Position numbers and translations under genes: made by a program. This document shows positions 2,945-35,437 of a DNA stretch of 35,626 bases, piece by piece. The DNA comes from Acetobacteraceae bacterium (GTDB taxonomy: Bacteria; Pseudomonadota; Alphaproteobacteria; Acetobacterales; Acetobacteraceae), in the NCBI GenBank assembly GCA_019750465.1, contig JAIEOP010000302.1:1-35626 (forward strand), given 5' to 3'. How positions within the stretch are numbered: the stretch's first letter is position 1; the number at the start of each line of letters is the position of its first letter. Below the pieces are notes generated by a model, which was not told the origin of the DNA, searched no databases, and worked only from the letters and a program-made list of their open reading frames with translations.

Positions 2945-3274
2945 ATTGGCCGCCGGGATCGGCGCGACCAGCCGGGCCAGTTCGGCACGGTATTCGGCGC
3001 GCAGGACCAGCCGCTCCTCCAAGGGCAGGAAATGCGACCAGAGGTGGAAGGTGGATCGCGCGATCTCTGCCTGGGCGCCTGTCCAGGTGCCGCTCGGCTC
3101 CGCGCGAGCCGCGGCGAGGTCGCGCATCACTCGGGCACGAATGCCCGGAACGATGTCGTCCTGCTGTTCCTGAGGCAGGGAGCCGGCGACGAAGAGGTCC
3201 TGCTGCACGAGGATGTCCCGAATCGGTGGGTGGTCGGCACCCGGCGAGGATAGCCGATCCGGCGCCGCAGTCAC
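2936..3274 (-). CDS. 112-aa hypothetical protein translationally coupled to the restriction-modification gene
   Basis: I do not recognise a family. The frame starts with GTG at 3274, and this GTG overlaps the TGA stop of the upstream restriction-modification gene in a GTGA arrangement, a classic sign of translational coupling. The product is mainly helical and charged: an N-terminal stretch (PPIRDILVQQDLFVAGSLP), then IVPGIRARVMRDLAAARAEP, then an aromatic segment ending in LPLEERLVLRAEYRAELARL. There is no signal peptide, membrane segment or metal motif. The same frame stays open upstream into the methylase gene, but that part is antisense-type shadow sequence. Being tied to a type IIG-like enzyme, it may be a subunit, stabiliser or regulator of it; that is inference. 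Confidence 0.7.
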   Translation of the reverse strand: MTAAPDRLSSPGADHPPIRDILVQQDLFVAGSLPQEQQDDIVPGIRARVMRDLAAARAEPSGTWTGAQAEIARSTFHLWSHFLPLEERLVLRAEYRAELARLVAPIPAANTG

Positions 3275-6200: not shown

Positions 6201-7080
6201 TCATGCGGTCGAGCAGCTTCTGGGCCAGCCGCACCAGGCGCCCCCTGGTGTGGGGATAGGCCGGGTTGGCCTCGATCAGCGCATGGATCAGCGCCTCGCG
6301 GTAGCGGCGGTACTCGGCGTAGAACTCGCGTTCGAGATCGCGCTCGCGGACAAGCTGTTCCCGAATCAGCCTCAGCAGGGGCGGCTCGCCGATTCTTGAC
6401 AGCAACATGTCCCGGTGCAGCAGCCGGGCGAACAGGAACCGCTGGAAGGCGCCCGCCGGGGTGTCGTCCAGAAGCGCCGTGCCTGGCACGCCGGGCGGGC
6501 GACGGATGACGAAGCGCAGCGACTGCGCCGGCATCTTGTCCCGCCAATAGACCCGGACCTCGTTCATGTCGGAGACGATGCCGAAGCGGGGCCTGATGGG
6601 CGCCCCCGCAAACAGTGGCAACTCGGCACCGCGCAGGTAGTCCGCGCACTGCTGGACCGGCGACCGGCGATTGCCGCGGCGCGCTTGCGGCGCATCGAGG
6701 CTCGAACGGATATCCTTGAACTCGCAGATCACCTGTGGAACCGGCATGGTGGGCGGCGCATCGAACCAGCCGAGCGCAAGGTCCGCGAAGCCCGTATTGC
6801 CGCCGCCGCCGGCGCCGGGAATCGGGTGCCGCGGGTAGGCGGTGAAGCCCCGTTCAGGCCCCGCAGCGCCGCCGGGCCAGTAGCCCCAGAGATCGAAGAA
6901 GAACGTCCTGAGGAAGCCCGCCTCCGCCTGGGTCTCCGTCTGGCGACCACGATTCGCCCAGTCCCGCAACCGCGCGACAAGGGCGATGTCGTCCGCCGAG
7001 CCCCTGAAGTCATCCGCTTCAGAACCAAACCGGCTACGGAGATAGGTATCCGAGAGAAGCGGAATGTAGTCGTCAGCCAT
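3271..7080 (-). CDS. type IIG-like restriction-modification enzyme (Eco57I-family methylase with PD-(D/E)xK nuclease)
   Basis: This 1269-aa single-chain enzyme joins restriction and modification. The N-terminal region has a PD-(D/E)xK-like nuclease pattern: D100 in GFADLAL, E120-F-K122 in VICEFKD and glutamines at 143-144. A helical linker follows, then the adenine methylase core: YYTPEWVV (motif X), DPACGSGAF at D523 (motif I, SAM binding), GVDINPASVEL, and the catalytic NPPY at N663-Y666. A TaqI/Eco57I-type target recognition region follows from about residue 880 (GPDVRRWEVPRPEWHILFPY). A further C-terminal stretch of roughly 200 residues is not explained by these domains. It would methylate host adenines and cut unmodified foreign DNA. 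The ATG at 7080 lacks a strong ribosome binding site. Its stop overlaps the start of a 112-aa gene. Confidence 0.88.
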   Translation of the reverse strand: MADDYIPLLSDTYLRSRFGSEADDFRGSADDIALVARLRDWANRGRQTETQAEAGFLRTFFFDLWGYWPGGAAGPERGFTAYPRHPIPGAGGGGNTGFADLALGWFDAPPTMPVPQVICEFKDIRSSLDAPQARRGNRRSPVQQCADYLRGAELPLFAGAPIRPRFGIVSDMNEVRVYWRDKMPAQSLRFVIRRPPGVPGTALLDDTPAGAFQRFLFARLLHRDMLLSRIGEPPLLRLIREQLVRERDLEREFYAEYRRYREALIHALIEANPAYPHTRGRLVRLAQKLLDRMIFVLFCEDMGQQIAYPPQLLRNRLVRLSTEALHPAGGEGWEMLRRLFRRMDTGGPFDGQPLNRFNGGLFATDPELDELELPNHAFFFPGQGGDEASLRSPQPNLLYFAANYNFGTTADGRAITLYALGRIFEQSITELEALEAAQDGRPSLTVITRRKRDGVYYTPEWVVAQVVEETLGTRLESLRQEAGWDEATRFTEDQIARRTSPVRAQVQAIERYQAALRLLTVVDPACGSGAFLIYALDYLLLEVRRTEAERQRLAGDQALLFDDDAATKEILSRNIYGVDINPASVELTRLALWLHTARAGSALSDLDHTIRDGNSLVGPDIANINQNYAELLPSGRERINAFDWQGAFPEVFARGGFDCVIGNPPYVKLQNYRRVMPEVADYLRRATAPGLQTAGPRYASAQTGNTDLYLPFIEKGIDLLRPGGRLGFIAPSLWLLNEYGRGLRRRVHRGRHLDRWIDFKDFQVFDEAITYTALQFFTREPNAAVRFQEAPTGPVVPDWSDPDRTVPYEGLAAGEAWTLLPRAERAVMTALEARCDRLDGVASIIVGLQTSADSIYHLRLRAPGRYEAHDGTAVPIEDAIMLPLVSGPDVRRWEVPRPEWHILFPYAPDEAGRMRLIPAARMASDFPLAWAYLARHEAALRAREDGKMDDAVSWWAYNYPKNLDKQDRPKLFVAQTVKELEVAPDASGVLAANNVRVNCILPTRAEDLWFLLAVLHGGVCDWVFRCIAKPKMGGFFEANRQFIAPLPVPRADSQTRAALARGARVATALHTRRAAALHRLEHRFAACAVQTEPIEWLLAGQVMPLDALRRSAPPTLARRETQAWAMARQAEQTQAAIARMAGLLPPDANLTVAFEGGELRLNANGMPLLDRIFLDAADGPFIALQWRLALRGRNFVGMAGAEALLRRLPSVRRSANPDLRAQAIGAGERVLRYDAAIALNALRMETALEAAYGLTPDERVVISQTRPLS

Positions 7081-15102: not shown

Positions 15103-15220
15103 AGCGCGATCCTCGCAAACTGCGGCGAGATCCACCGCACGGGGCAAGCGGGGTGGATTGTCCGCACCGGACTGCCCCCCGAGCCCGCGCCAGCCAAAGC
15201 CTGCACAAGAAGGAATGCCC

Positions 15221-16468
15221 ATGCTGTCCACGACCTCCCTCACCCGCCGCGGCGCGCTGCTCGCCGGGTTCGGCGCCGCGCTGGGCCTGCCGGCGATCCG
15301 CCCCGCCTCCGGCCAGGGGGCGCCGATCAAGGTCGGCGTGCTGCACTCCCTGTCCGGCACCATGGCGATTTCCGAGACGGCGCTGCGCGACACCGTGCTG
15401 ATGATGGTCGAATGCATCAACGGCCGCGGCGGCCTGCTCGGCCGGCGCGTCGAGGCGGTGGTGGTGGATCCCGCCTCCAACTGGCCGCTCTTCGCCGAGA
15501 AGGCGCGCGAGCTGCTGCAGGTGCACAAGGTGGACGCGACCTTCGGTTGCTGGACCAGCGTGTCCCGCAAGTCCGTGCTGCCGGTCTTCGAGGAGCTGAA
15601 CGGCATGCTCTTCTATCCCGTCCAGTACGAGGGCGAGGAGGAGAGCAAGAACATCTTCTACACCGGCGCCGCGCCGAACCAGCAGGCGATCCCGGCGGTG
15701 GAGTACCTGATGTCGGGCGATGGCGGCGAGGCGAAGCGGATCGCCCTGCTCGGCACCGACTACGTCTATCCGCGCACCACGAACCGCATCCTGCGCGGCT
15801 TCCTGAACAGCAAGGGCATCGCCAATGCCGACATCATGGAGGAGTACACCCCGTTCGGGCACTCCGACTGGCAGGGCATCGTGGCGCGCGTGAAGCGCTT
15901 CGCCGGCGAGGGCAAGAAGACGGCGATCGTCTCCACCATCAACGGCGACGCGAACGTGCCGTTCTACCGCGAGCTCGGCAACCAGGGCATCAAGGCCGAG
16001 GACATCCCGTGCGTGGCGTTCTCGGTGGGCGAGGAGGAGCTGGCCGGCATCGATACCCGCCCCCTCGTCGGCCATCTGGCGGCGTGGAACTACTTCATGT
16101 CGATCCCCGGCGCACCGAATGCCGAGTTCAAGGCGCTGTGGCAGGCCTACATCAAGAACCCGAAGCGCGTCACCAACGACCCGATGGAGGCCACCTACAC
16201 CGGCTTCCGCATGTGGACCCAGGCGGTGGCGAAGGCCGGCACCACGGCGGTGGACGCCGTGCGCAGCGCGATGATCGGCCAGAAGCTGATGGCGCCCTGC
16301 GGCTTCGAGGAGGAGATGCTGCGCAACCACCATCTCTCGAAGCCGGTCTTCATCGGCGAGATCCAGGCCGACGGGCAGTTCAACATCGTCTGGAAGACGC
16401 CGAACGCAGTGCCGGCGGAGAACTGGTCGCCCTTCATCCCGGAGAACGCCAACCGGCGCCGCGGCTGA
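15221..16468 (+). CDS. urtA: urea ABC transporter substrate-binding protein UrtA
   Basis: This 415-aa periplasmic receptor starts with a twin-arginine-like signal (TRRGALLAGFGAALGLPAIR). The mature part begins PIKVGVLHSLSGTMAISE, and the diagnostic UrtA segments follow: FGCWTSVSRKSVLPVFEELN, MLFYPVQYEGEEESKNIFYT and GAAPNQQAIPAVEYL. It binds urea, possibly short amides, and delivers it to UrtBC. ATG 15221 has AAGGA six bases upstream; the ATG at 15215 is an alternative. It is the first gene of the operon behind the sigma-54-type promoter, and 148 bases of hairpin-forming repeats separate it from urtB, which may let it be made in excess. Confidence 0.95.
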   Translation: MLSTTSLTRRGALLAGFGAALGLPAIRPASGQGAPIKVGVLHSLSGTMAISETALRDTVLMMVECINGRGGLLGRRVEAVVVDPASNWPLFAEKARELLQVHKVDATFGCWTSVSRKSVLPVFEELNGMLFYPVQYEGEEESKNIFYTGAAPNQQAIPAVEYLMSGDGGEAKRIALLGTDYVYPRTTNRILRGFLNSKGIANADIMEEYTPFGHSDWQGIVARVKRFAGEGKKTAIVSTINGDANVPFYRELGNQGIKAEDIPCVAFSVGEEELAGIDTRPLVGHLAAWNYFMSIPGAPNAEFKALWQAYIKNPKRVTNDPMEATYTGFRMWTQAVAKAGTTAVDAVRSAMIGQKLMAPCGFEEEMLRNHHLSKPVFIGEIQADGQFNIVWKTPNAVPAENWSPFIPENANRRRG

Positions 16469-16476
16469 GCTGCAAG

Positions 16477-16587
16477 CCCCTCCCCCGCTGGCGGGGGAGG
16501 GGTACGGGGGTGGGGGTGGCTGGACGCAGGGGTCCATGGCCGAACCACGACCCCCACCCTGGCCCTCCCCCGCCAGCGGGGGAGGGG
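16477..16587. repeat. inverted pair of GC-rich palindromic repeats between urtA and urtB (copies 2 and 3)
   Basis: Copy 2 (16477-16502) has perfect 12-base arms CCCCTCCCCCGC and GCGGGGGAGGGG around a TG loop, followed by a GGGGGTGGGGGTGG tail. Copy 3 (16563-16586) is the same unit in the opposite direction, preceded by a C-rich tail complementary to that of copy 2. The pair can fold as two hairpins or one long stem, like a BIME in enterobacteria. It probably dampens or stabilises the transcript downstream of urtA. Confidence 0.8.
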
Positions 16588-16616
16588 ACATGGCGGCACG
16601 GCTGCCGGGATCCTGC

Positions 16617-18173
16617 ATGAAACACCGATCGATCGGCCTGCTTCTTCTGGTGCTTGCCGTCCTCCTGCCCGGTGTCGCGGTCAGCGCGCAGCAGCAGGAC
16701 GCCTTTGCGGCACAGGTCGCCGCACTCGCCGGCGGATTCGCGCAGCAGGCGGAGGCGGTGGAGCGCCTCGGCGCCTCGGGCGACCCGCGTGCCCTGCCGA
16801 TCCTGCGCGCGCTCTCCGAGGGGCGGCTGCGGAAGCTGCCCGACGGCATCGTCCTGGAACCCGGCGCCGAGGCGCCGTCGGAGGCCGAGGCGATCCGCAT
16901 CAACAACCGCGTCCGCCAGGCGCTGCGCGGCGCGCTGGGCCGCCTCTCCATCGTCTCGCCCGACCCCGCCGAGCGCCTGGCGGCGGCCGAGGCCGTGTTC
17001 CGCAGCCGCAGCGCGGAGAACGTGCCACTGCTGGAAACCGCCCTGGCGCGCGAAGGCGTGCCGCGCATCCGCGCGCAGATGGAGCTGGCGCTCGCCGCCT
17101 CCCGGCTCGTCGCCACGGATGAGAGCGTGAAGCGTGCGGCCATCGCGCGGCTCGGCGGCTCCGGCAGCACCGATGCGCGCGCGCTGCTGCTGGAGGCCCG
17201 CGCCGCCAATCCCTCGCTGCTGCTCGAGATCGAGGCGGCGACCGCCGCCATCGACCGCCAGCTCGCCATCCGCCGCACCGGCGAGACGCTGTTCCAGGGC
17301 CTCTCGCTCGGCTCCGTGCTGCTGCTGGCCGCGCTGGGCCTGGCCGTCACCTTCGGCGTCATGGGCGTGATCAACATGGCGCACGGCGAGTTCGTCATGC
17401 TCGGGGCCTACACCACCTTCGTGGTGCAGGAGGCCTGCCGCGGGGTGCCGTGGCTGCTGCCCTGGTCGCTGCCGCTCTCGATCCCCGCCGCCTTCCTGGT
17501 CGCGGCACTGGCCGGCGCGGCGCTGGAGCGCGGGCTGATCCGGCACCTCTACGGAAGGCCGCTGGAGACGCTGCTGATGACCTTCGGCGTCGGCATGATC
17601 CTGCAGCAGGCCGTGCGCATCGCCTTCGGCGCGCAGAACCGCGAGGTCCTCAGCCCGGCCTGGATGCAGGGCACGATCACCCTGCCATGGATCGGCGTTC
17701 CGGTGACGCAGAACCGGCTGTGGATCATCGTCTTCGGGCTCCTGGTCTTCGCGCTGGTGGTGGCGGCCATCCGCTTCACCCGCTTCGGCCTCGAGATGCG
17801 CGCGGTGGTGCAGAACCGGCGCATCGCCGCCACCATGGGCATCCGCACCGGCCGCGTCGATGCGCTGACCTTTGCCTTCGGCTCCGGCATCGCGGGGATG
17901 GCCGGCGTGGCGCTCAGCCAGATCGACAACGTCTCGCCCAACCTCGGCACCGGCTACATCATCGACAGCTTCATGGTGGTGGTGTTCGGCGGCGTGGGAT
18001 CGCTGGCGGGCACGCTGGTCGGCGCCTTCACGCTGGGTGTGGTCAACAAGGTGCTGGAACCCTGGGCCGGCGCGGTGCTGGCCAAGGTCGCGGTGCTGGT
18101 GGCGCTGATGCTGTTCATCCAGCGCCGGCCGCGCGGCCTCTTTGCCCTCAAGGGCCGGGCGGCCGAGGCATGA
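16617..18173 (+). CDS. urtB: urea ABC transporter permease UrtB
   Basis: This 518-aa protein has a signal sequence (SIGLLLLVLAVLLPGVAVSA), then a helical repeat-like region of about 200 residues, typical of UrtB, and a LivH-like permease domain. The permease part starts GETLFQGLSLGSVLLLAALG, has VMGVINMAHGEFVMLGAY, and ends LFIQRRPRGLFALKGR. It forms the urea channel with UrtC. ATG 16617 starts the signal peptide directly; an upstream ATG at 16590 has a strong GGGGGAGGGGAC in front, but that sequence is one arm of the intergenic repeat. The last bases overlap the urtC start (ATGA). Confidence 0.94.
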   Translation: MKHRSIGLLLLVLAVLLPGVAVSAQQQDAFAAQVAALAGGFAQQAEAVERLGASGDPRALPILRALSEGRLRKLPDGIVLEPGAEAPSEAEAIRINNRVRQALRGALGRLSIVSPDPAERLAAAEAVFRSRSAENVPLLETALAREGVPRIRAQMELALAASRLVATDESVKRAAIARLGGSGSTDARALLLEARAANPSLLLEIEAATAAIDRQLAIRRTGETLFQGLSLGSVLLLAALGLAVTFGVMGVINMAHGEFVMLGAYTTFVVQEACRGVPWLLPWSLPLSIPAAFLVAALAGAALERGLIRHLYGRPLETLLMTFGVGMILQQAVRIAFGAQNREVLSPAWMQGTITLPWIGVPVTQNRLWIIVFGLLVFALVVAAIRFTRFGLEMRAVVQNRRIAATMGIRTGRVDALTFAFGSGIAGMAGVALSQIDNVSPNLGTGYIIDSFMVVVFGGVGSLAGTLVGAFTLGVVNKVLEPWAGAVLAKVAVLVALMLFIQRRPRGLFALKGRAAEA

Positions 18174-19273
18174 GCGCGACCACGCTCGCCGCGGCACCCC
18201 CAGCGGGCCGCGCGCGCGTCACGCTGCGGCTGGTTCTGGCCGGTGCGATCCTGCTCCTCGCCCTGCTGCCGGCATTGAACCGGCTGCCGGCGGATGCGGC
18301 GCTGCACGTCTCCGACTTCACCATCGCCGTGACGGGCAAGTGGATCACCTATGCGATCCTCGCGCTCTCGATCGACCTGGCCTGGGGGTATGCCGGCATC
18401 CTCTCGCTCGGGCACGGCGCCTTCTTCGCGCTGGGGGGCTATGCGATCGGCATGCACCTGATGCGGCTGATCGGACCGCGCGGCGTCTATGGCCACCCGG
18501 TGCTGCCTGACTTCATGGTCTTCCTCGGCTGGCCGGAGCTGCCCTGGTACTGGTGGGGCTTCCAGCACTTCCCCTTCGCGCTGCTGATGGCGCTGTTCGT
18601 GCCGGGCCTGCTGGCGCTGGTGGTGGGCTGGCTCGCCTTCCGCAGCCGCATCACCGGCGTCTATCTCTCGATCCTGACGCAGGCGATGACCTATGCGCTG
18701 ATGCTGGCGTTCTTCCGCAACGACATGGGCTTCGGCGGCAACAACGGCTTCACCGACTTCAAGGAGCTGCTGGGGATGCCGCTGAACACGGGCAACGCCC
18801 GGGCGGTGCTGTTCTACGCCTCGCTGGCGGCGCTGCTGGGGTGCCTCTGGCTGTGTGCACGCATCACCGCCTCCAAGCTGGGGCGGGTGCTGGTGGCGAT
18901 CCGCGATGCCGAAAGCCGCATCCGCTTCCTTGGCTACGACGTGACGCAGCACAAGCTGTTCGTCTTCGTGCTCTCGGCAATGATGGCGGGCCTCGCCGGC
19001 GCGCTCTACGTGCCGCAGGTCGGCATCATCAACCCCGGCGAGTTCAGCCCGGGCAACTCCATCGAGGCCGTGGTCTGGGTGGCGGTCGGCGGGCGTGGCA
19101 CGCTGGCCGGCGCGCTGCTCGGCGCCTTTTCGGTGAACGCGCTGAAGACCTGGCTGACCACGGTGGCGCCGGAGTTCTGGCTGTTCGTGCTGGGTGGCAT
19201 CTTCGTTGCGGTGACGCTGTTCCTGCCGCGCGGCCTGGTCGGGCTGCTGGACCGCAGGGGGACGGGGCGATGA
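18170..19273 (+). CDS. urtC: urea ABC transporter permease UrtC
   Basis: This 367-aa inner-membrane protein is the LivM-like partner of UrtB. It has a first segment LVLAGAILLLALLPALNRL, the family motif WGYAGILSLGHGAFFALGGY, and RNDMGFGGNNGFTDFKELLG, which is characteristic of UrtC. It ends with LFLPRGLVGLL. Its ATG at 18170 overlaps the urtB stop and its own stop overlaps the urtD start, so all three are translationally coupled. Confidence 0.95.
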   Translation: MSATTLAAAPPAGRARVTLRLVLAGAILLLALLPALNRLPADAALHVSDFTIAVTGKWITYAILALSIDLAWGYAGILSLGHGAFFALGGYAIGMHLMRLIGPRGVYGHPVLPDFMVFLGWPELPWYWWGFQHFPFALLMALFVPGLLALVVGWLAFRSRITGVYLSILTQAMTYALMLAFFRNDMGFGGNNGFTDFKELLGMPLNTGNARAVLFYASLAALLGCLWLCARITASKLGRVLVAIRDAESRIRFLGYDVTQHKLFVFVLSAMMAGLAGALYVPQVGIINPGEFSPGNSIEAVVWVAVGGRGTLAGALLGAFSVNALKTWLTTVAPEFWLFVLGGIFVAVTLFLPRGLVGLLDRRGTGR

Positions 19274-20079
19274 GCGAGTCGTCCCAGGCCGTGCTGCCGA
19301 TGGAACGGCCGCCCGTTCTCGGACGCCCGCGCCCGCCGCGCAGCGACGCCGTGCTCTACCTCGATGGCGTCTCGGTGGTGTTCGACGGGTTCCGGGCGCT
19401 GAACAACCTCTCGCTCATCGTCGAACAGGGTGAGCTGCGCGCCGTGATAGGCCCGAACGGCGCAGGCAAGACCACGATGATGGACGTCATCACCGGCAAG
19501 ACCCGCCCCACCGAGGGCGTGGTGCAGTTCCGCGACATCGACCTCACGCGGCTGGATGAGGCCGCCATCGCCAATCTCGGCATCGGGCGGAAATTCCAGA
19601 AGCCCACCGTGTTCGACGCGCTGACCGTGTTCGAGAACCTGGAACTGGCGCTCAAGGCGCCGCGCAATCCCTGGGCCTGCCTGCGCTGGATGCTCTCCGG
19701 GGAGGCGCGCGACCGCATCGCCGCGACGCTGGCCGAGATCGGGCTTACCGCCCGCGCCGGCGACCGAGCCGCGATCCTCAGCCATGGCCAGCGGCAATGG
19801 CTGGAGATCGGCATGCTGCTGATGCAGGATCCCGAGGTGCTGCTGGTGGATGAGCCCGTGGCCGGCATGACCGACCAGGAAACCGAGCACACCGCCGCGC
19901 TGCTGCGCCGGATCGCCGACGGGCGGCGCAGCGTCGTGGTGGTGGAGCATGATCTCGAATTCGTCCGCGCGCTGGGCTGCAAGGTGACGGTGCTGTGCGA
20001 GGGCGCGATGCTGTCGGAGGGGAGCATCGACCACGTGCAGAACGACCCGCGGGTGGTCGAGGTGTATCTGGGGCGGTAG
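19270..20079 (+). CDS. urtD: urea ABC transporter ATP-binding protein UrtD
   Basis: This 269-aa ATPase has Walker A GPNGAGKTT, the Q-loop region GIGRKFQKPTVFDALTVFEN, signature LSHGQRQWLEIGM, Walker B VLLVDEPVAGM and the switch His in VVEHD. The LSHGQ variant and FQKPTVF are typical of UrtD rather than of LivG. It energises the UrtBC channel with UrtE at the cytoplasmic face. The N-terminal 35 residues are a proline-rich extension before the ABC fold. It starts in the urtC stop codon. Confidence 0.94.
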   Translation: MSESSQAVLPMERPPVLGRPRPPRSDAVLYLDGVSVVFDGFRALNNLSLIVEQGELRAVIGPNGAGKTTMMDVITGKTRPTEGVVQFRDIDLTRLDEAAIANLGIGRKFQKPTVFDALTVFENLELALKAPRNPWACLRWMLSGEARDRIAATLAEIGLTARAGDRAAILSHGQRQWLEIGMLLMQDPEVLLVDEPVAGMTDQETEHTAALLRRIADGRRSVVVVEHDLEFVRALGCKVTVLCEGAMLSEGSIDHVQNDPRVVEVYLGR

Positions 20080-20121
20080 GGAAGCAAGCGATGTCCGGCG
20101 GCACGGCCACCCCCACCCCGC

Positions 20122-20145
20122 CCCTCCCCCGCCAGCGGGGGAGGG
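20122..20145. repeat. GC-rich palindromic repeat between urtD and urtE (copy 4)
   Basis: The arms CCCTCCCCCGC and GCGGGGGAGGG flank a CA loop, with the C-rich tail CCACCCCCACCCC directly upstream as in copy 3. The right arm lies in front of the urtE start and, together with the following GAGTAGGG, supplies the Shine-Dalgarno-like sequence, so folding could hide it. Confidence 0.75.
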
Positions 20146-20154
20146 AGTAGGGCG

Positions 20155-20847
20155 ATGCTGCGCGTCGAAGCGATCGACCTGTCCTACGGCGCCAGCCGGT
20201 GCCTGCGCGGCGTCAGCCTGGAGGCCGATCCCGGGCGGATCACCTGCGTGCTGGGCCGCAACGGCGTCGGCAAGTCCTCGCTCATGCGCGCCATCATGGG
20301 GCTGGAGCGGATCCAGGCCGGGCGCATCCTGTGGGAAGGCCGCGACGTCTCCCGGATGGCGCCCGCCGAGCGCGCCCGCGCCGGGATCGGCTACGTGCCG
20401 CAGGGGCGCGAGATCTTCCCCTTCCTCACCGTGCAGGAGAACCTGGAGACGGCGCTCGCCGCGGCGCCGCGCGGCTCCAAGGTGCCGGAGGAGGTGTTCG
20501 CCCTCTTTCCCATCCTGCAGCAATTCCTCAGGCGGCGCGGCGGCGACCTCTCCGGCGGGCAGCAGCAGCAACTGGCGATCGCCCGCGCCCTGACCGCGCG
20601 CCCCCGCCTGCTCATCCTCGACGAGCCGACCGAGGGCATCCAGCCCAACATCATCAAGGACATCGCCCGCGTCATCCGGCTGCTGGCCCGCGAGCGCAAC
20701 TTCGCCGTGGTGCTGGTGGAGCAGTACTTCGAATTCGCCCGCGACCTCGCCGACCGCATCGCCGTGATGGTGCGCGGCGAGGTGGCGCTCGGCGGTGCGG
20801 TCGAGGCGCTGGACGATGCAACCGTGCGGCGGCTGCTGACCGTGTAG
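20155..20847 (+). CDS. urtE: urea ABC transporter ATP-binding protein UrtE
   Basis: This 230-aa ATPase is the LivF-like second nucleotide-binding subunit. It shows Walker A GRNGVGKSS, IGYVPQGREIFPFLTVQENL, signature LSGGQQQQLAIARAL, Walker B LLILDEPTEGIQPNI and VLVEQYFEFA with the switch residue as Gln, as is usual in LivF/UrtE. It completes the urtABCDE set. It is separated from urtD by 75 bases holding the palindromic repeat. The end of the gene is duplicated: the 16 bases covering the last codons and the stop are repeated immediately downstream. No urease gene follows in this window. Confidence 0.94.
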   Translation: MLRVEAIDLSYGASRCLRGVSLEADPGRITCVLGRNGVGKSSLMRAIMGLERIQAGRILWEGRDVSRMAPAERARAGIGYVPQGREIFPFLTVQENLETALAAAPRGSKVPEEVFALFPILQQFLRRRGGDLSGGQQQQLAIARALTARPRLLILDEPTEGIQPNIIKDIARVIRLLARERNFAVVLVEQYFEFARDLADRIAVMVRGEVALGGAVEALDDATVRRLLTV

Positions 20848-23200: not shown

Positions 23201-23371
23201 CGCATCCTCCTTGAGGGTCCGGGCGGGCCGGACTCGCCGCGTGATCATAGCCGAGCCGGGCCCCCGGACGGCAGGCCTCCTCTTCTGCCGGGCGTTCACT
23301 TGGCGGAGGCTTCCCGCGGGCCGGCACCCGTCCTAGGCTTGCCGGACCGCCGCGACAGGAGACCGCCGCCC

Positions 23372-24374
23372 ATGGCCGCCGACGTGATCCCCGTGCTCGA
23401 CATCGCGCCGCTCCGGGCCGGCGAGCCCGGCGCGCTCGAGCGCCTGGGCCGGGAGCTGCACCGCGCCTTCACCGAAGTGGGCTTCTACTTCGTGCGCGGC
23501 CACGGCGTGCCCGAGACACTGGTGGACGACGTCTTCGACGCGACGCGCCGCTTCCACGCCCTGCCGATGGACGCGAAGCTGGCCATGCAGTTCGACAACC
23601 ACAACACCGGCTACCTGCCGATGCGCGGCGCCACCACGCGCATGAACGCCCTCGGCACGCCGCAGAAGCCCAATTTCAACGAGGCCGTGTTCTTCAAGCG
23701 CGAGCTGGCGCCCGACCATCCTGACGTGCTGGCCGGCCGCCGCTTCCGCGGCGTGAACCGCTGGCCTGCGGGCCTGCCCGGGTTCCGCGAGACCGCGCTG
23801 GCCTACATGGCGGCCATGGAGGCGCTGGGCCGCAGCCTGGTGCCGATCTACGCCGTGGCGCTCGGCCTCCCCGCGGATTGGTTCGACGACAAGTTCCAGG
23901 AGCCGATGTTCACGCTGCGCATGACCCACTACCCGCAGCAGGCGCCGACCTCGCCGGAGGACGAATGGGGCCTGGCACCGCATGCCGACACCTCCTTCAT
24001 GACCATACCTGGCGCAAAACAAGGTTCCCGGCCTGTCGCTCCGGCTGCCCGACGGCACCTGGGTGGATGCGCCGGCGCCGGAGGGCTCCTTCCTGGTGAA
24101 CGGCGGCATGATGCTGCGGCGCTGGACCAACGAGCGCTTCCTCGCCACCCCGCACCGGGTGACCAACCGCAGCGGGCAGGAACGCTACGCCATCCCCTTC
24201 TTCATGGACTGCTCCTACAACGCGGTGATGGCGCCGATCCCGACCTGCGTGGACGCGGCCCACCCGGCGAAATACCCGCCCTTCACCTATCTCGACTTCA
24301 TGAGCGAATACTCGGGCGCCAACTACTCGAAGCCGGAACAGGCGGCGGCAGGCATGGCGCTGCAGGGCGCCTGA
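23372..24374 (+). pseudogene. 2-oxoglutarate/Fe(II) oxygenase (isopenicillin N synthase family), frameshifted
   Basis: Two frames together encode one oxygenase of about 333 aa. The first runs from ATG 23372 through VGFYFVRGHGVP, PNFNEAVFFKR and the iron-binding PHADTSFMTI; the second resumes at LAQNKVPGLSLRL and carries WTNERFLATPHRVTN (third iron ligand His) and RSGQERYAIPFF (2-oxoglutarate-binding Arg-x-Ser-like region). One extra A at about 24007, in ACCATACCTGG instead of ACCATCCTGG, breaks the frame; deleting it restores the consensus exactly. All ligand residues survive, and codon use is normal on both sides, so the event is recent or a sequencing error. The family oxidises diverse small molecules; the substrate is unknown. 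Confidence 0.85.
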
Positions 24375-24544: not shown

Positions 24545-25657
24545 ATGCCCCGCATGCCATTGCACCGCCCGCTCCCATTCCGCCGCACGCCGGCGGCCTA
24601 CGGCCTGCTCCTGGCGGCGCTTGCCTTGCTGCTCCTGGGCACCGCGTTGCCGTGGCAGGGCCGCGCGCAAGGTTCGGGCGAGCCGATCCGGCTGCGGGTC
24701 GTCGGTGGCCTGGCGAACCTCAGCCAGTACGTGGATTTCGAGGCGCCGTTCTGGACCACCCGCGTTCCGCAGCTGACGAATGGCCGTATCCGCCCGGACA
24801 TCGCGCCCTTCGACCGCAGCGGCATCCGCGGCCAGGAGATGCTGCAGCTGATGCGCCTGGGCGTGGTGCCCTTCGGCTACGTGCTGCTTGGACTGGCCGC
24901 GGCGGAGGAGCCGCTGCTCAACGTGCTGGACCTGCCGGTGATGAACACCGACATGGCCGCGCTGCGGCGCACCGTCGATCTCGGGCGGCCCGGCCTCGCG
25001 CAGCTGCTCCGGGACCGATACAATGTCGAGCTGCTGGCGATCTTCACCTATCCGGCGCAGGTGATGTTCTGCCGGCGTCCCTTCTCCGGCCTGTCCGATC
25101 TCGCCGGCCGGCGCATCCGCACCTCAAGCGTCGGCCAGTCCGAGCTGGTCTCGGCGCTCGGCGGCGTCCCCGTGGTGATCCCGCTGGCCGAAACGGTGCA
25201 GGCGATCCGGGGCGGCGTCGTCGAATGCGCCATCACCGGCACGCTCTCCGGGAATGCGATCGGGCTGCATGAGGTCACCAGCCACGTCTCGCGCCTGGCG
25301 ATCAGCTGGGGCGTGTCCTTCTTCGGCGCCAATGTGGCCGCATGGCAGGCCCTGCCCGTGGACCTGCGCGAGAAGCTGCGCGACGGGCTGCGGCAGCTGG
25401 AGCGGGAGGTCTGGGAGGGTGCCGACCAGCAGACCGAGGAGGGCCTCGCCTGCCTCGCCGGCCGGCCGGGCTGCCGCGGCGGCAAGCCGGGGCGCATGAC
25501 GGTCGTCGAGGAGCGGTGGCAGGACGAATCGCGCCGCCTGCAGCTGCTGAACGAGACCATCCTGCCCGGCTGGATCCAGCGCTGCGGGCCGGAGTGCACC
25601 ACGATCTGGAACCGCGACATGGCGCCGACCCTAGGTCTTTGGGCTCGCACCGAATGA
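24545..25657 (+). CDS. TRAP-type (DctP family) periplasmic binding protein, orphan, coupled to a hybrid kinase
   Basis: This 370-aa protein starts with a hydrophobic signal (AAYGLLLAALALLLLGTALP). The DctP family core is seen in LAIFTYPAQVMFCRRPFSGL and DLAGRRIRTSSVGQSELVSALG, which contains the Arg that usually salt-bridges the ligand carboxylate, then PVVIPLAETVQAIRGGVVEC. The C-terminal part has four cysteines (CLAGRPGC, RCGPEC) that could form disulfides, unusual in the family. No DctQ or DctM permease gene is nearby. Its stop overlaps the ATG of the histidine kinase, so it probably serves as the ligand receptor of that sensor rather than of a transporter. Start: ATG 24545 or 24554. Confidence 0.85.
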   Translation: MPRMPLHRPLPFRRTPAAYGLLLAALALLLLGTALPWQGRAQGSGEPIRLRVVGGLANLSQYVDFEAPFWTTRVPQLTNGRIRPDIAPFDRSGIRGQEMLQLMRLGVVPFGYVLLGLAAAEEPLLNVLDLPVMNTDMAALRRTVDLGRPGLAQLLRDRYNVELLAIFTYPAQVMFCRRPFSGLSDLAGRRIRTSSVGQSELVSALGGVPVVIPLAETVQAIRGGVVECAITGTLSGNAIGLHEVTSHVSRLAISWGVSFFGANVAAWQALPVDLREKLRDGLRQLEREVWEGADQQTEEGLACLAGRPGCRGGKPGRMTVVEERWQDESRRLQLLNETILPGWIQRCGPECTTIWNRDMAPTLGLWARTE

Positions 25658-28611
25658 ACACCCAGGGCCGCCTGTTCCGTGTCGCCATCGCGCTGGCGGC
25701 CGCCCTGCTGATGGCGGCGCTGGGTGCCGGCACCCTGCTGCTGCTGGAACGCATGCGCCAGACCGCGCAGGCCGCCGCGTTCGATACGGTGGAGCGGTCG
25801 GCGCGCGTCGTGGAAACGGCGGTGAACCGGCACCTGCTTGCGGTGGACGGCATGCTGGCCGGGCTGCCCGCCATCCTTTCCGCGGTGCCGCGCATGCCCA
25901 ACGGCATGGCCAATCCGGCCGTGGTCAACCGCATGCTGCGGGACCTCAACTTCCAGAACTTCACCTTCCGCGACCTGCTGCTGGTGGCGCCGGACGGGAG
26001 GGTGCCGGCCTCGGCCCTGCCCGGCTCGCGCGGGCGGCCGCTGCCGATCGACCCGAAGGCGCTGGAGGCGGCCGGGCAACCCGGCGCCGTCGCGATCCTT
26101 GGGCCGGCGCACAACGCAACGACCGGTGAATGGGCGATCTACCTTGCGCGGCAGGTCAATCCGCCGGGGATCGGCGCGGCGGTCGCCGTGGCCGAGGTGC
26201 CGATCTCGCTGATCACCATGCTGCTCGGGCCCTATGGCGAGTCGCGCAGCATGCGCCTGACGGTGGAGCGCGGCGGCGGGTTGCTGCTGGCGGCGACGCC
26301 GCATGACGAGGGCCGCATGGGCCGCGCCCTGGGTGCGCTGCCGCCGGACGAGAAGGCGGATGGCGTCGCACGGGCCGCGACCTCGCGCTTCACCGGCGCG
26401 CGCATCTTCCGGGCGCAGCGGCCGACACTCTACCAGGACCTCTACGTCACGGCCAGCCTCGATGCCGACGTGGCGCTGGCGGAATGGCGGAAGGACCGCA
26501 ACGGGCTGGTTGCCGGCATGCTCGGCCTCGGCACCATGCTCACGGGCTTCGCCGTGGCGATCAACCTGGCGCTGCGCCAGCGCGAGCGCAACGAGGCAGA
26601 GCGTGCCCGCGCCCGCCAGGTGCTGGAGAACGCCATCGAGTCGCTCTCCGACGGCTTCGTCATGTTCGATGCCGAGGATCGGCTCGTGGTCTGCAACCAG
26701 CGCTACCGCGACTTCTACGCGGTAACCGGCCCCTTCGTGGTGCCGGGCATCAAATTTTCCGACATGATCCGCGAGGGCGCGAAGCGCGGCCAGTACCCGC
26801 AGGCCGGCGACGACATCGAGGGCTTCGTGCGCGACATCCAGGCCTGGCACAAGGGCAACCACCCGCCGATCGAACGCCTGCTGCCGGACGGCCGCTGGGT
26901 GCTGGTGACGGAGCGCGGGACGCCGGATGGCGGTACCGTCGGCATCCGCACCGACATCACGGCGCTCAAGAGCGCGATGGCCGGCCTCGCCGCCGCGCGC
27001 GACGCGGCCGCAGCGGCGACCGAGGCGAAATCGCGCTTCCTCGCCCGCATGTCGCATGAGCTCCGCACGCCGCTGAACGGCGTGCTCGGGCTGGCACAGG
27101 CGCTGATGCGCGATCCGTCGCTGTCGGACGCCGCCCGCGCACAGGCGCGCACGCTCGAGATGTCGGGGCGGCACCTGCTCGCCGTCGCCAACGACGTGCT
27201 CGATCTCGCCCGCATCGAGACCGGGAAGCTGGAGCTGCAGCCCGTGACCACCGCACTGCCGGCGCTGCTCGAGAGCTGCATCACCATCATGCATCCGGCG
27301 GCGAAGCAGCACGGCGTCGCGCTGCACCTAGACGCCGACGCCGCGCTGCCGCGCCACGTCCTGGCCGACGAGACCCGGCTGCGGCAGGTGCTGCTGAACC
27401 TGGTCTCCAACGCCGTGAAGTTCACCCCGGAACAGGGCCGGGTGGAGATGCGCGCCTTCCTCTGCGGCGCCCCCGATGCCGAGGGCCGCATCCCGATCCG
27501 CATCGAGGTGCGCGACGAAGGTCCGGGCGTGCCGGAAAGCCAGCGCACCGCGATCTTCGGCGATTTCGTGCAGATCGAGCGCACCGGCACGCCGGACGGC
27601 GCGGGGCTCGGCCTCGCCATCGCCGCCTACATGGTGGACCGCATGGATGGGCGGATCGGCTGCGCCGACAATCCGGATTCGCGCACCGGCAGCGGCGCCA
27701 TGTTCTGGGCGGAACTGCCGCTGCCGCCCGCGCGCGTTCCCGCACCGACCGCGCTGCCGGCGCTGCGGCCGGGCACCGGCGCCGCGGTGGCGCCGCTCCG
27801 CATCCTGGTCGCCGACGACGTGCCGGCCAACCTCATGGTGGCGCGCGCCCTGCTCGAGACCGCCGGCCATCGCGTCGATACCGTCGGCGACGGCGAGCAG
27901 GCGCTGGAGGCAATGACCGCGGCGGACGACGGCACCGGACCGGCCTACGACGCCGTGCTGATGGACGTCATGATGCCGCGGCTGAACGGCCTGGAGGCGA
28001 CCCGCCGGATCCGGGCCCTGCCGGGCGCCGCCGCCCGAATCCCCATCGTCGCCGTCACCGCCAGCGCCTATCCGGAGGATGTCGCGGCCTGCCGCGAGGC
28101 CGGCATGACCGACCACGTCGTCAAGCCGATCGATCGCGAGTCGCTGCTGCGCAAGCTGGCTGGCCTCGCCGTGCCGGCCCGCCCCCTCGCCGGCGCGCCC
28201 AGCCACGCGGCGGGGGCCCATGCCGGGCTGCCGCTGCTGAACCCCGGCTCCGTCGGCACGCCACGCCTGGCGATTCCCGGTCTCGACGCGGAGATGGCGC
28301 TGCGGCTGGTACCGGAATTCCTGCGCGAAATCCGCACCGCGCGCGACGATCTCCGGCAGGCCGACCTGCGGGTGCCGAGCGCCGTCGCCGCCGTGGCGCA
28401 TCGCCTGGCGGGATCGGCGGCAACGCTCGGGGCGGAGCGGCTGGCCGCCGCCGCCCGGGGCGCCGAAATCGCCGCGCGCCAAGCCAGGGCCGAGGGCGCG
28501 CCGGTCCCGGCCACGCTCCGCGAGAACCTATTGGGCATCGTCGCCGAGACCCTGGTTGCGCTGGATGCCGCCGCGGCCGTGGGCGCCAAGGCCGGCGCCG
28601 AAGCGGCCTGA
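25654..28611 (+). CDS. unorthodox hybrid histidine kinase (periplasmic sensor-PAS-HisKA-HATPase-REC-Hpt)
   Basis: This 985-aa membrane kinase has a first transmembrane helix at about residues 9-31, a periplasmic domain of about 250 residues (cache-like spacing) and a second helix at about 284-307. A PAS domain follows (ESLSDGFVMFDAEDRLVVCN), then HisKA with H468 in MSHELRTPLNG, an ATPase with NLVSNAVKF, DEGPGVP and GLGLAIA, a receiver with the phospho-acceptor D771 in LMDVMMPRLNG, and an Hpt domain with H916 in AHRLAGSAATLG. It can run a His-Asp-His relay; the final response regulator is not in the window. Its ATG overlaps the stop of the TRAP-type binding protein gene, as expected for a binding-protein-dependent sensor such as TorS or LuxQ. 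Confidence 0.92.
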   Translation: MNTQGRLFRVAIALAAALLMAALGAGTLLLLERMRQTAQAAAFDTVERSARVVETAVNRHLLAVDGMLAGLPAILSAVPRMPNGMANPAVVNRMLRDLNFQNFTFRDLLLVAPDGRVPASALPGSRGRPLPIDPKALEAAGQPGAVAILGPAHNATTGEWAIYLARQVNPPGIGAAVAVAEVPISLITMLLGPYGESRSMRLTVERGGGLLLAATPHDEGRMGRALGALPPDEKADGVARAATSRFTGARIFRAQRPTLYQDLYVTASLDADVALAEWRKDRNGLVAGMLGLGTMLTGFAVAINLALRQRERNEAERARARQVLENAIESLSDGFVMFDAEDRLVVCNQRYRDFYAVTGPFVVPGIKFSDMIREGAKRGQYPQAGDDIEGFVRDIQAWHKGNHPPIERLLPDGRWVLVTERGTPDGGTVGIRTDITALKSAMAGLAAARDAAAAATEAKSRFLARMSHELRTPLNGVLGLAQALMRDPSLSDAARAQARTLEMSGRHLLAVANDVLDLARIETGKLELQPVTTALPALLESCITIMHPAAKQHGVALHLDADAALPRHVLADETRLRQVLLNLVSNAVKFTPEQGRVEMRAFLCGAPDAEGRIPIRIEVRDEGPGVPESQRTAIFGDFVQIERTGTPDGAGLGLAIAAYMVDRMDGRIGCADNPDSRTGSGAMFWAELPLPPARVPAPTALPALRPGTGAAVAPLRILVADDVPANLMVARALLETAGHRVDTVGDGEQALEAMTAADDGTGPAYDAVLMDVMMPRLNGLEATRRIRALPGAAARIPIVAVTASAYPEDVAACREAGMTDHVVKPIDRESLLRKLAGLAVPARPLAGAPSHAAGAHAGLPLLNPGSVGTPRLAIPGLDAEMALRLVPEFLREIRTARDDLRQADLRVPSAVAAVAHRLAGSAATLGAERLAAAARGAEIAARQARAEGAPVPATLRENLLGIVAETLVALDAAAAVGAKAGAEAA

Positions 28612-33228: not shown

Positions 33229-34503
33229 ATGGTGGACCAGCCGCAGCAGACAACCGCGCCCGTCCCGGTGGCGCAGCCGATGGCCGCACCCGGCGTGCCG
33301 GTGGCGCAGCCGATGCGCTACCTGGACAAGGCGATGGGCGCGCTGCGCGACCTCGGCCTGCCGCTGCCGACCGCCGAGGGCGCCGCGGCGGAAAGCCCCA
33401 TCACCGCGCTGCTCGCCCGCATCACGGAGCTCGACCAGGATCGGGTGGTGCTGATCGCGCGCGTGCTTAACCAGGCCACCGTCTTCAACGAGGTGGTGCG
33501 CGAGCAGATCAGCGGCATGACGGTGGGCGAGCGCTACCGCCAGATCACCGAGGCGTTCAACTCCATCCGCGACGACGCGCGGGAGATGGTGAAGCAGGTC
33601 GAGGACGGCCGCATCAGCACGGTGGAGCGGCTGTCGAACATGTGGCAGCACGCCACGCGCGGCTCGATCGCCGACCGCTTCCAGAAGATCCGCGGCACCT
33701 TCCTGGAGGTGAACCGCGACTCCAAGGAGCAGATCGAGCGCGAGCACCGCATCCTCGAGGCCTATCGGGACTTCCGCGGCGCCATGAAGGAGGCCGAGGT
33801 GCTGGCCTTCGAGGTGCTGAAGACCGCGCAGGACAAGCTCGATGCGGCGAAGGCCGCCGTCGGCACGGCCTCCGCCGCGGTCGAGGCGGCCGCGGGCGCG
33901 GAGCCCGCCGAGCGCGCGCGGCTGGAGCTTGCCCGCGACGAGGCGGTGCGTGCGCTGCAGGCCGAGGAGGGGCGCTACCAGATCGCCAAGGACCTCTCCG
34001 ACAACCTCACGATCTCCTACAACACCTCCGAGGTCATCATGGCGCGGCTGGTGCAGACCACCTCGGCGAAGGAGCGGGTCTGGCAGCAGTCGGTCTCCTT
34101 CTTCTCGACCAACGAGGCGGTGCTGACCGCGCTGACCGCGAGCTTCACGGGCCTCTCGGGCCTCGCCGAGAGCACGCGCACTCTGGAGGGCATGAAGGAG
34201 GGCGTGAACACGTCGCTGGAGACGCTGGCCGAGATCGGCGGCAAGGTGCAGGAGGCCGCGCTGCGCGCCGGCTACGGGCCCACCATCCGCGCCGAATCCG
34301 TGAAGATGCTGGTGGACAGCGTTGTCTCCTACCAGGAGCACTCGCGCGAGATCATCGAGGAGATGCGCATCTCCGCGACGCGCAATTCGGAGGAGATCCG
34401 CAACGCGGTCGAGGACGCGAAGCGCCGCATGGCGCGCCTTGCCCAGGGTGCCCAGGTGGTGGGCGCGCAGGCGGTGGCTGCGGCCGGCGCGAATGCCGCC
34501 TGA
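33229..34503 (+). CDS. helical coiled-coil protein, TelA-like
   Basis: This 424-aa protein is almost entirely helical and charged, with no signal peptide or membrane segment. The N-terminus is Pro/Val/Ala-rich with two VAQPM repeats. The C-terminal half (NLTISYNTSEVIMARLVQTT, AKERVWQQSVSFFSTNEAVL, ESTRTLEGMKEGVNTSLETL) has the spacing and W-containing helix seen in TelA/YceH toxic-anion-resistance proteins, but the resemblance is from memory and weak. GGAAGTGGGAG lies just upstream of ATG 33229. It is divergent from the Kbp-like gene and overlaps the start of the next gene by 11 bases, so an operon with it is likely. Function unknown. Confidence 0.7.
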   Translation: MVDQPQQTTAPVPVAQPMAAPGVPVAQPMRYLDKAMGALRDLGLPLPTAEGAAAESPITALLARITELDQDRVVLIARVLNQATVFNEVVREQISGMTVGERYRQITEAFNSIRDDAREMVKQVEDGRISTVERLSNMWQHATRGSIADRFQKIRGTFLEVNRDSKEQIEREHRILEAYRDFRGAMKEAEVLAFEVLKTAQDKLDAAKAAVGTASAAVEAAAGAEPAERARLELARDEAVRALQAEEGRYQIAKDLSDNLTISYNTSEVIMARLVQTTSAKERVWQQSVSFFSTNEAVLTALTASFTGLSGLAESTRTLEGMKEGVNTSLETLAEIGGKVQEAALRAGYGPTIRAESVKMLVDSVVSYQEHSREIIEEMRISATRNSEEIRNAVEDAKRRMARLAQGAQVVGAQAVAAAGANAA

Positions 34504-35437
34504 CACGGCCGCGGCGCCGCCGGCGCCGCCGCTCGACGAGACCATGCTGGCGATGGACGTGGTGGACACGCTGCGCCACGCCGAGACGCTGGTGGCGCGC
34601 GAGCTCTCCGCCGAGGATCGCGCGGCGAGCCTGAAGGCGCGGCTGCGCGAGATCTACGCCAGCCAGGGCATCGAGGTGCCCGACCACATCCTCGAGCAGG
34701 GCGTGGCGCGCATCGCCGAGAGCCGATTCACCTATCAGCCTGCGCCGCCCGGCCTGCAGCGCAGCCTTGCCACGCTCTGGGTGACCCGGGCGCGCTGGGG
34801 CCGCGTGACCGCTGCCGTGCTCGGCCTGCTGGTGCTGGTGGCCGGCGGCTGGTGGTTCGGCATCGAGCGCCCGGCGGAACGCGCCCGTATCGCCGAGCAG
34901 CAGGAGTTGCGGGAGGGGCTGCCGCGCGCGCTCGCCGCGGAGCGCGAGCGCATCGGCGCCGCCACGCGCAACGCGGCCGCGCTGGAACGGGCGGATCGCC
35001 TGCTGGGCGAGGGCCAGGCGGCGGTGCGCGCCGGCGCCGCGGCCGAGGCCCGCCTGCGGCTGGCGGAGATGCAGGCGCTGCGCGCGCAGCTGGCGCAGGA
35101 CTACACGGTGCGCATCGTCTCCCGTCCCGGCGAGCAATCCGGGGTCTGGCGCGTGCCGGCCGCCAATCCGCGCGCCCGCAACTACTACCTCATCGTCGAG
35201 GCGGTGGATGGGCGCGGGCGCCCGGTGGAGGTCTCGATCACGAGCGAGGAGGACGGCCGCACCGCGCGCACGGCGAAATGGGGCCTGCGGGTGCCGGAGG
35301 CCGAGTTCGAACGGGTGCGCCGCGACAAGGCAGAGGATGGCGTGATCGACCAGCCCGTCATCGGCCGCAAGCCGGCCGGCGAGCTGGCGCCGCAATGGAC
35401 CATCCCGACCACCGGCGGGGCCATCCTGCAATGGTAG
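34493..35437 (+). CDS. one-pass membrane protein of unknown function
   Basis: This 314-aa protein begins inside the end of the preceding gene. A helical N-terminal part (ETMLAMDVVDTLRHAETLVA, LKARLREIYASQGIEVPDHI) is followed by one transmembrane helix at about residues 104-123 (GRVTAAVLGLLVLVAGGWWF), a coiled-coil stretch (about 130-215), and a beta-rich C-terminal domain (YTVRIVSRPGEQSGVWRVPA, ARNYYLIVEAVDGRGRPVEV). It may correspond to a DUF6384-type protein, which I cannot confirm. The alternative start ATG 34544 would drop the Pro-rich N-terminus. The next gene starts 10 bases after the stop. Confidence 0.75.
   Translation: MPPDTAAAPPAPPLDETMLAMDVVDTLRHAETLVARELSAEDRAASLKARLREIYASQGIEVPDHILEQGVARIAESRFTYQPAPPGLQRSLATLWVTRARWGRVTAAVLGLLVLVAGGWWFGIERPAERARIAEQQELREGLPRALAAERERIGAATRNAAALERADRLLGEGQAAVRAGAAAEARLRLAEMQALRAQLAQDYTVRIVSRPGEQSGVWRVPAANPRARNYYLIVEAVDGRGRPVEVSITSEEDGRTARTAKWGLRVPEAEFERVRRDKAEDGVIDQPVIGRKPAGELAPQWTIPTTGGAILQW

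Follow-up and report, generated by a model that had tools for sequence, protein, structure and literature searches.

Does a periplasmic receptor of the transporter type serve a sensor kinase when the two proteins are encoded as one unit? The question is raised by a locus of an Acetobacteraceae bacterium at which the gene for a receptor of the tripartite ATP-independent periplasmic (TRAP) type runs directly into the gene for a hybrid sensor kinase. The stretch of DNA that was analyzed, referred to here as the window, is 35,626 nucleotides long and is one whole contig (JAIEOP010000302.1; G000:C496) of a 6.0-Mb draft genome. The receptor open reading frame, which belongs to the DctP family, occupies positions 24545-25657 of the forward strand and encodes 370 amino acids, and the kinase frame on the same strand, with its ATG at 25654 and its stop at 28611, encodes 985 amino acids. 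The original prediction, which was made from the sequence of the window, was right that the receptor stop and the kinase start share an ATGA (25654-25657) and that TRAP permease genes are missing, as DctM has no match on the contig and a single tblastn query detected no DctQ in the window. The receptor-sensor pair is a conserved unit, and there is a good probability that the receptor acts on the dCACHE domain of the downstream-encoded sensor by binding it in a ligand-dependent way, and so sets the output of that sensor.

The receptor and the sensor kinase

The receptor matches PF03480 over residues 68-299 (24746..25441) with an E-value of 3.5e-20 and 72.9 bits against a curated cut-off of 23.4, and no other Pfam family is matched at E 0.001, PF03401 (TctC) being among those unmatched. 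A hydrophobic stretch at residues 17-35 fits an N-terminal signal peptide, which is predicted to cover residues 1-42 (24545..24670) with cleavage placed near residue 42 by eye. Structures were modeled with AlphaFold2 from sequences of the window and of related loci. The receptor model has a predicted local distance difference test score (pLDDT) of 91.5, with low values at the N-terminus, and its top Foldseek matches are 4n4u (TMt 0.90) and 2pfy, the structure of DctP7 with pyroglutamate. All 50 of the Foldseek matches listed are solute-binding proteins, nearly all of them labelled TRAP, DctP or SiaP, and 2pfy is also the sole profile match of the receptor at E 1e-20. Its model and its family match both mark the receptor as a binding protein of the TRAP type.

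Arginine 192 of the receptor is present in all 118 aligned receptors (95/95 paired with a sensor, 20/20 unpaired and 3/3 linked to DctQM) and aligns with the TRAP carboxylate arginine in the 2pfy alignment; by its motif position we take it to be the equivalent of Arg-147 of SiaP. In SiaP the equivalent arginine selects carboxylates, according to the part of PMC4646407 that was available. Because the TRAP arginine is conserved, a ligand that carries a carboxylate is plausible. Six cysteines are each found in 95/95 paired receptors, two of them in the core (C176 and C228) and four (C303, C310, C347 and C351) in a C-terminal extension of residues 300-370 (25442..25654).

The kinase (25654..28611) contains PAS_7 (residues 328-441; 26635..26976), HisKA (458-524; 27025..27225), HATPase_c (572-691; 27367..27726), Response_reg (717-835; 27802..28158) and Hpt (886-951; 28309..28506) domains, all above the Pfam cut-offs, and the motifs with H468, the phospho-acceptor (27055-27057), D771 and H916 are present. 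Hydropathy maxima at residues 12-30 (25687..25743) and 285-303 (26506..26562) fit two membrane helices, so the periplasmic span of residues 32-283 that the original prediction had drawn is correct; of three additional peaks, those at 61-79 and 173-191 fall within the folded domain and that at 959-977 belongs to the C-terminal part. The AlphaFold2 model of sensor residues 1-335 has a pLDDT of 94.1, and the best fold match of the sensor domain is 3lif_A, a histidine-kinase sensor domain (Z 21.3; root-mean-square deviation 3.1; 233 residues aligned). On the strength of this model the periplasmic part of the kinase (residues 33-280; 25750..26493) is a dCACHE domain. The Pfam model dCache_1 recognizes only 2 of 34 paired proteins, PAS_7 was found in all 34 that were scanned, and Hpt was detected in 24 of 32 kinases.

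Conservation of the pair and its outputs

A survey of genomic neighborhoods, which had been proposed as a check on the original prediction, ties the receptor to the sensor across many genera. In the order survey, 299 genomes were searched sensor-first, which avoids picking receptors by similarity. Sensor genes numbered 92 in 79 genomes and 15 of the 65 genera, and 79 of them lie directly downstream of a receptor gene, with one further sensor divergent from its receptor and 12 without a receptor. Set against the 18 DctP matches, window receptor included, in the 6.0-Mb genome, these counts leave adjacency by chance with a negligible probability; nothing was found in favor of that explanation, and it is ruled out by the order survey.

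Other samples agree with this picture. The family survey covered 200 genomes at thresholds of 1e-40 for the receptor and 1e-5 for the sensor, and found a receptor match in 52 genomes and a sensor match in 55. In its regions, 36 of the 59 receptor genes above the score cut-off have an adjacent sensor on the same strand, and the gap is between -11 and +31 bases at 34 of these 36 loci (loci carry numbers prefixed L); the outliers are 125 bases at L126 and 375 bases at L123, where tblastn places the sensor start directly behind the receptor in another frame. The best-scoring 61 of the 115 receptor matches entered, which are the first 115 of a longer table, were all paired, and the genome searches scored few candidates per genome (7 in one). 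A set of named loci consists of the 80 top-scoring receptor loci out of 581 or more, which favors close relatives, and here the sensor stands beside 75 of the 80 receptors, 73 in tandem and 2 divergent. The five named loci without a sensor are L148, at a contig edge, the Belnapia loci L170, L192 and L204, and L207 (Siccirubricoccus); the nearest named relative by receptor is that of L130, a metagenome-assembled genome (MAG) of the Acetobacteraceae, with 84% identity. A search of the class matched the sensor in 9 of 385 genomes, the window's genome included. Outside the family, a receptor lies directly before the sensor in three families (L221 and L228 in one genome, L222 and L223), with identities of 39-45% for the receptor and 28-35% for the sensor, and at five other loci from this search no receptor was seen within the approximately 4 kb of sequence examined.

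Locus counts rest on tblastn, because at 13 of the 80 named loci the receptor escaped a codon-usage gene caller that had been trained on 14 genes of the window. Loci L070-L129 and L130-L209 overlap in genomes and are not summed, save in pooled alignments and trees from which identical rows were dropped; the pooled set of 115 loci counts some genomes twice. Further rows were dropped for L127 (alignment A1), L123 (A2), L207 (A3), L193, L202, L205 and L208 (A4), and for L090 and L120, which are cut or split (A5).

The receptor-less sensor loci of the order survey (L124, L128, L129 and L210-L218) were all inspected and gave no receptor match. Several of these sensors (the genus g44 set L128, L129 and L210-L218) are seen by eye to lie behind argB-like reading frames, and several of the same regions hold TctC genes. 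Around a distant sensor (L220, genome G722) no DctP gene was present in the stretch examined, and the gene just upstream on the opposite strand has a start that resembles a type I periplasmic binding protein by eye; an exchange of the receptor family is possible at this locus. At L071-L087, in three genomes of genus g36 (G036, G120 and G171), the receptor subfamily is expanded: each genome has between 6 and 10 matches at 1e-40, but the sensor search finds one sensor in each.

The output that follows the receptor is variable. At the 75 paired named loci it is a histidine kinase in 62 cases and a GGDEF-EAL protein in 12, with one case cut by a contig end; among the loci of the family survey, Pfam finds PAS_7, GGDEF and EAL domains and no kinase at L104, L105, L118 and L125. 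Seven of the 12 GGDEF-EAL loci come from Phreatobacter, Ancylobacter (2), Bosea, Kaistia and Hyphomicrobiales MAGs (2), and five from Falsiroseomonas, Roseomonas, Roseicella, an Acetobacteraceae MAG and a Rhodopila MAG. One kinase unit and one GGDEF-EAL unit, each with a receptor of its own, occur together in Falsiroseomonas bella (L150/L176) and in Roseicella sp. DB1501 (L132/L165). Since GGDEF-EAL stands in place of the kinase at 12 of the 80 loci, the fixed partner of the receptor is the dCACHE-PAS input part, and with 75 of 80 receptors paired and 62 kinase and 12 GGDEF-EAL outputs behind them, receptor and sensor seem to form a single input module that can be joined to different outputs. 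The original prediction had the receptor fixed to a PAS/REC/Hpt kinase, which holds for the tie to the dCACHE-PAS input and fails for the output, given the 12 GGDEF-EAL loci and an Hpt domain in only some of the kinases. That the receptor stays with dCACHE-PAS under either output is the strongest indirect support for a joint function of the two proteins.

How often the output was exchanged was followed on quick trees, in which some branches are long and several forks are weakly supported. The two output states, kinase and GGDEF-EAL, require 2 changes on the receptor tree, which holds 76 of 114 rows after the histidine-kinase rows were thinned by half, and 2 on the sensor tree (61 rows), of which well-supported branches force only 1. 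The two trees disagree on the Falsiroseomonas/Roseomonas pair L150/L156.

Mechanism, ligand and neighboring genes

In the mechanism that is favored here, the receptor would be exported to the periplasm and would close on a small ligand, most likely one bearing a carboxylate. The ligand-bound (or ligand-free) receptor would then bind the membrane protein of the next gene at its dCACHE domain, and this binding would alter the signal that membrane helix 2 and the PAS_7 linker pass on. For the protein of the window the predicted output is a phosphorelay that runs from H468 via D771 and H916 to an unlinked response regulator. In the relatives the same receptor-dCACHE-PAS input would drive a GGDEF-EAL enzyme of cyclic di-GMP (c-di-GMP) metabolism. 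Physical contact, ligand class, signal direction, phosphorelay activity and target are what we infer in this scheme. With regard to the target, one query at 1e-5, which divergent receivers may escape, matched no REC domain outside the sensor in the pooled set of 115 paired loci, in which some genomes are present twice.

Several observations weigh against a receptor that acts on its sensor throughout. Direct ligand binding is common among domains of the dCACHE type, and PctA, PctB, Mlp24 and DctB, whose domains bind ligands in this way, are among the best fold matches of the sensor domain. The 12 sensors without a receptor among the 92 of the order survey belong to genus g44 (11) and genus g47 (1), and a thirteenth (L122, genus g90) comes from the family survey. 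Receptors without a sensor exist as well, for example in Belnapia, and on the receptor tree 8 changes are required between the paired and unpaired states, so the unit can be broken up. In favor of the pair, receptor and sensor distances correlate (r 0.76 over 51 pairs, a value reached in 0 of 500 permutations), which points to a shared history of the two, although the correlation is confounded by the species tree and uncorrected for kinship. Residues conserved in the paired proteins only were considered as contact sites and set aside as too weak, with kinship uncontrolled; they are D65, P72, T157, D218 and L259 of the sensor (90 paired against 13 receptor-less) and F89 alone of the receptor. 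Finally, the available part of PMC11113362 describes the Pseudomonas aeruginosa kinases AgtS and AruS as not activated by neighboring solute-binding proteins, so that gene adjacency by itself may be misleading.

The fold matches, the receptor-less sensors and the case of AgtS and AruS would all be expected if the dCACHE domain binds the signal itself, with the receptor as a scavenger or buffer for the same compound that shares the operon without touching the kinase. This explanation, the main rival of the favored one, is unlikely, as the receptor has been retained with two kinds of output, in several families and mostly without a nearby DctM, and as the receptor-less sensors of the order survey are confined to two genera, with g90 of the family survey as a third.

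Alternatively, the receptor could be a transport subunit in the first place that serves a TRAP permease encoded elsewhere, with the neighboring kinase regulating that transport. The genome has 14 matches to DctM (12 long and 2 short), all on other contigs, and DctQ and DctM genes come after that of the nearest paralogue of the receptor in the genome (L002, with 35% identity), so the wider subfamily of the receptor serves transport. One solute-binding protein can do both jobs, as BctC does according to the part of PMC5812351 available, and as the title of a report on Rhodobacter sphaeroides DctP suggests for that protein. DctQM genes also stand behind the pair in some relatives, an arrangement that, according to the original prediction, would count against a dedicated sensory receptor. 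With one query for each gene, DctM was found in 7 of the 80 named loci, the other 73 having none within approximately 9 kb or up to the contig end, and DctQ in 4 (L131 Paracraurococcus, L133 Siccirubricoccus, and L174 and L188 Belnapia). The order in the four DctQ loci is receptor, sensor kinase, PuuE-like gene, DctQ and DctM, and in L131, L174 and L188 a second DctP gene, whose product is 29% identical to the window receptor, follows DctM; the contig of L133 ends right behind DctM. Loci of this type are read as a sensing receptor beside a transporter that has a receptor of its own, and a fixed TRAP operon was rejected as a general rule on these counts. The second DctP at three of the four DctQM loci and the 73 loci without a nearby DctM make it very unlikely that the receptor is primarily a transport subunit.

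The ligand of the receptor is narrowed only in part by the neighboring genes. A PuuE-like, hydantoinase-like or nucleoside hydrolase gene is found at 26 of 63 histidine-kinase loci and at none of the 12 GGDEF-EAL loci; which of these genes is present differs by clade, and the counts are not set against a genome-wide background. The D-hydantoinase neighbor passes the cut-off of TIGR02033 (500.8 bits against 393.25), the PuuE-like neighbor stays below its own (322.8 bits against 424.6), and the nucleoside hydrolase neighbors fall below the NCBIfam cut-offs. These genes suggest cyclic amides, ureides or nucleosides as ligands in some clades only. A single ligand pathway shared by all neighborhoods was rejected because gene content is mixed and depends on the clade, and no specific ligand is therefore named. 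A TRAP operon located downstream of allantoin genes is described in the available part of PMC3180692.

Directly upstream of the pair in the window is a gene for a 2-oxoglutarate (2OG)-Fe(II) dioxygenase-like protein (23366..24374, forward strand), the frame of which is broken near 24.0 kb. Relatives of this gene precede the pair in 10 of 56 clustered regions (L090 being the same contig as L130), and it is intact and in the same place in L130; the broken frame could be an error of the draft assembly. Elsewhere the window carries a Type IIG restriction enzyme-methyltransferase on the reverse strand at 3271-7080 (1047 bits to PADLOC PDLC03629). A five-gene ATP-binding cassette uptake unit of the branched-chain/urea type at 15215-20847 on the forward strand comprises a Peripla_BP_5 receptor, a BPD_transp_2 permease with a long N-terminal part and, assigned by eye, another permease and two ATPases. 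At 33229-35437, also on the forward strand, a protein of 424 amino acids that matches no Pfam family at E 0.001 is followed by a DUF6384 protein (407 bits).

Comparison with known systems

It had been proposed that a DctP-type receptor joined to a kinase forms a distinct sensory class, a claim that cannot be upheld in this form. DctP of R. sphaeroides reportedly takes part in the DctS/DctR sensor-kinase pathway (a report of 2021 under the name of Sanchez-Ortiz, as far as its title goes), and as this is in print, the DctP family is not new in kinase signaling. Common to the two cases is a DctP-family TRAP receptor in a sensor-kinase pathway. According to the title, however, R. sphaeroides DctP is the periplasmic component of the DctPQM transporter, whereas the window contig has no DctM; the window receptor gene moreover overlaps that of its own hybrid kinase and has relatives with a GGDEF-EAL output.

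Dedicated receptors that are coupled to a hybrid kinase with a receiver domain are likewise found in LuxP-LuxQ and TorT-TorS. LuxQ has a double-PDC periplasmic domain, TorS has an Hpt domain, and the receptors LuxP and TorT belong to other families than DctP. The window kinase differs in scoring far below both equivalog cut-offs: it reaches 317.6 bits against 676.5 for TorS (TIGR02956), aligned only over residues 441-836, the kinase-receiver part, and 254.2 bits against 1200 for LuxQ (NF041947). LuxQ is absent from the 50 structural matches listed for the sensor domain, an absence that is uninformative. Among solved structures, DctP7 of Bordetella pertussis (2pfy), which binds pyroglutamate, is the best sequence relative of the window receptor, yet identity is 23% over 307 columns, and the 2pfy chain of 301 residues has no room for the cysteine-bearing tail. 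The literature examined, seen in part, gives no signaling role for DctP7.

In BctC-BctE of B. pertussis, a carboxylate-binding receptor of a tripartite transporter acts on a sensor kinase (available parts of PMC5812351 and PMC9602780), so that a transporter-type receptor and a sensor kinase are again combined. BctC is of the TctC family and also a transporter subunit, with the permease in its own operon and the kinase genes in a separate one, whereas the window receptor is of the DctP family, has no DctM on its contig and forms one overlapping unit with its kinase. The GGDEF-EAL relatives share their general gene layout with NspS-MbaA of Vibrio cholerae and Sinorhizobium meliloti, in which, according to the part of PMC9993111 available, the gene for the binding protein overlaps or abuts a downstream gene for a membrane signaling protein. 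NspS is PotD-like and polyamine-sensing, in contrast to the DctP-like window receptor, the output of which is a hybrid kinase (HisKA/REC/Hpt).

Receptor genes beside kinase genes are not rare in themselves, since in Rhodoplanes 14 of 22 kinase genes have TctC genes close by (PMC5994714, in the part available). About 10 binding-protein-driven sensor kinases have been characterized, according to the available part of PMC9602780, and the parts available of PMC2147049, PMC3180692 and PMC4268860 contain no DctP-kinase pair. Neither this unit of two genes nor the combination of a DctP receptor and a c-di-GMP enzyme was found described in the literature covered in part, which is weak evidence of absence.

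The DctP-sensor unit is thus probably real, and by analogy its coupling looks like that of LuxP/LuxQ, BctC/BctE and NspS/MbaA in the way it would work. Its unusual feature is that a DctP receptor belongs to a fixed unit of two genes, in most cases with no permease, and that either a hybrid kinase or a GGDEF-EAL protein stands behind the same input. A TRAP-type receptor is here tied to its own sensor, and even within one species the input can be found joined to a kinase and to a c-di-GMP enzyme, which makes the receptor-dCACHE pair a clean test case for a self-contained input module. More tentatively, the cysteine-tailed receptor and the dCACHE-PAS_7 transmembrane input may constitute a self-contained alphaproteobacterial sensory cassette on phosphorelay and c-di-GMP outputs, and would then be a branch of the TRAP receptor family that is dedicated to sensing, next to the transport branch. 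A cyclic-amide or ureide acid is suggested as its ligand by the neighbors in some clades (PuuE-like, D-hydantoinase and nucleoside hydrolase genes, and a TRAP operon with a DctP of its own) and by the best solved relative, the pyroglutamate-binding DctP7. The unit bears on how a family of transport receptors turns into a family of sensing receptors.

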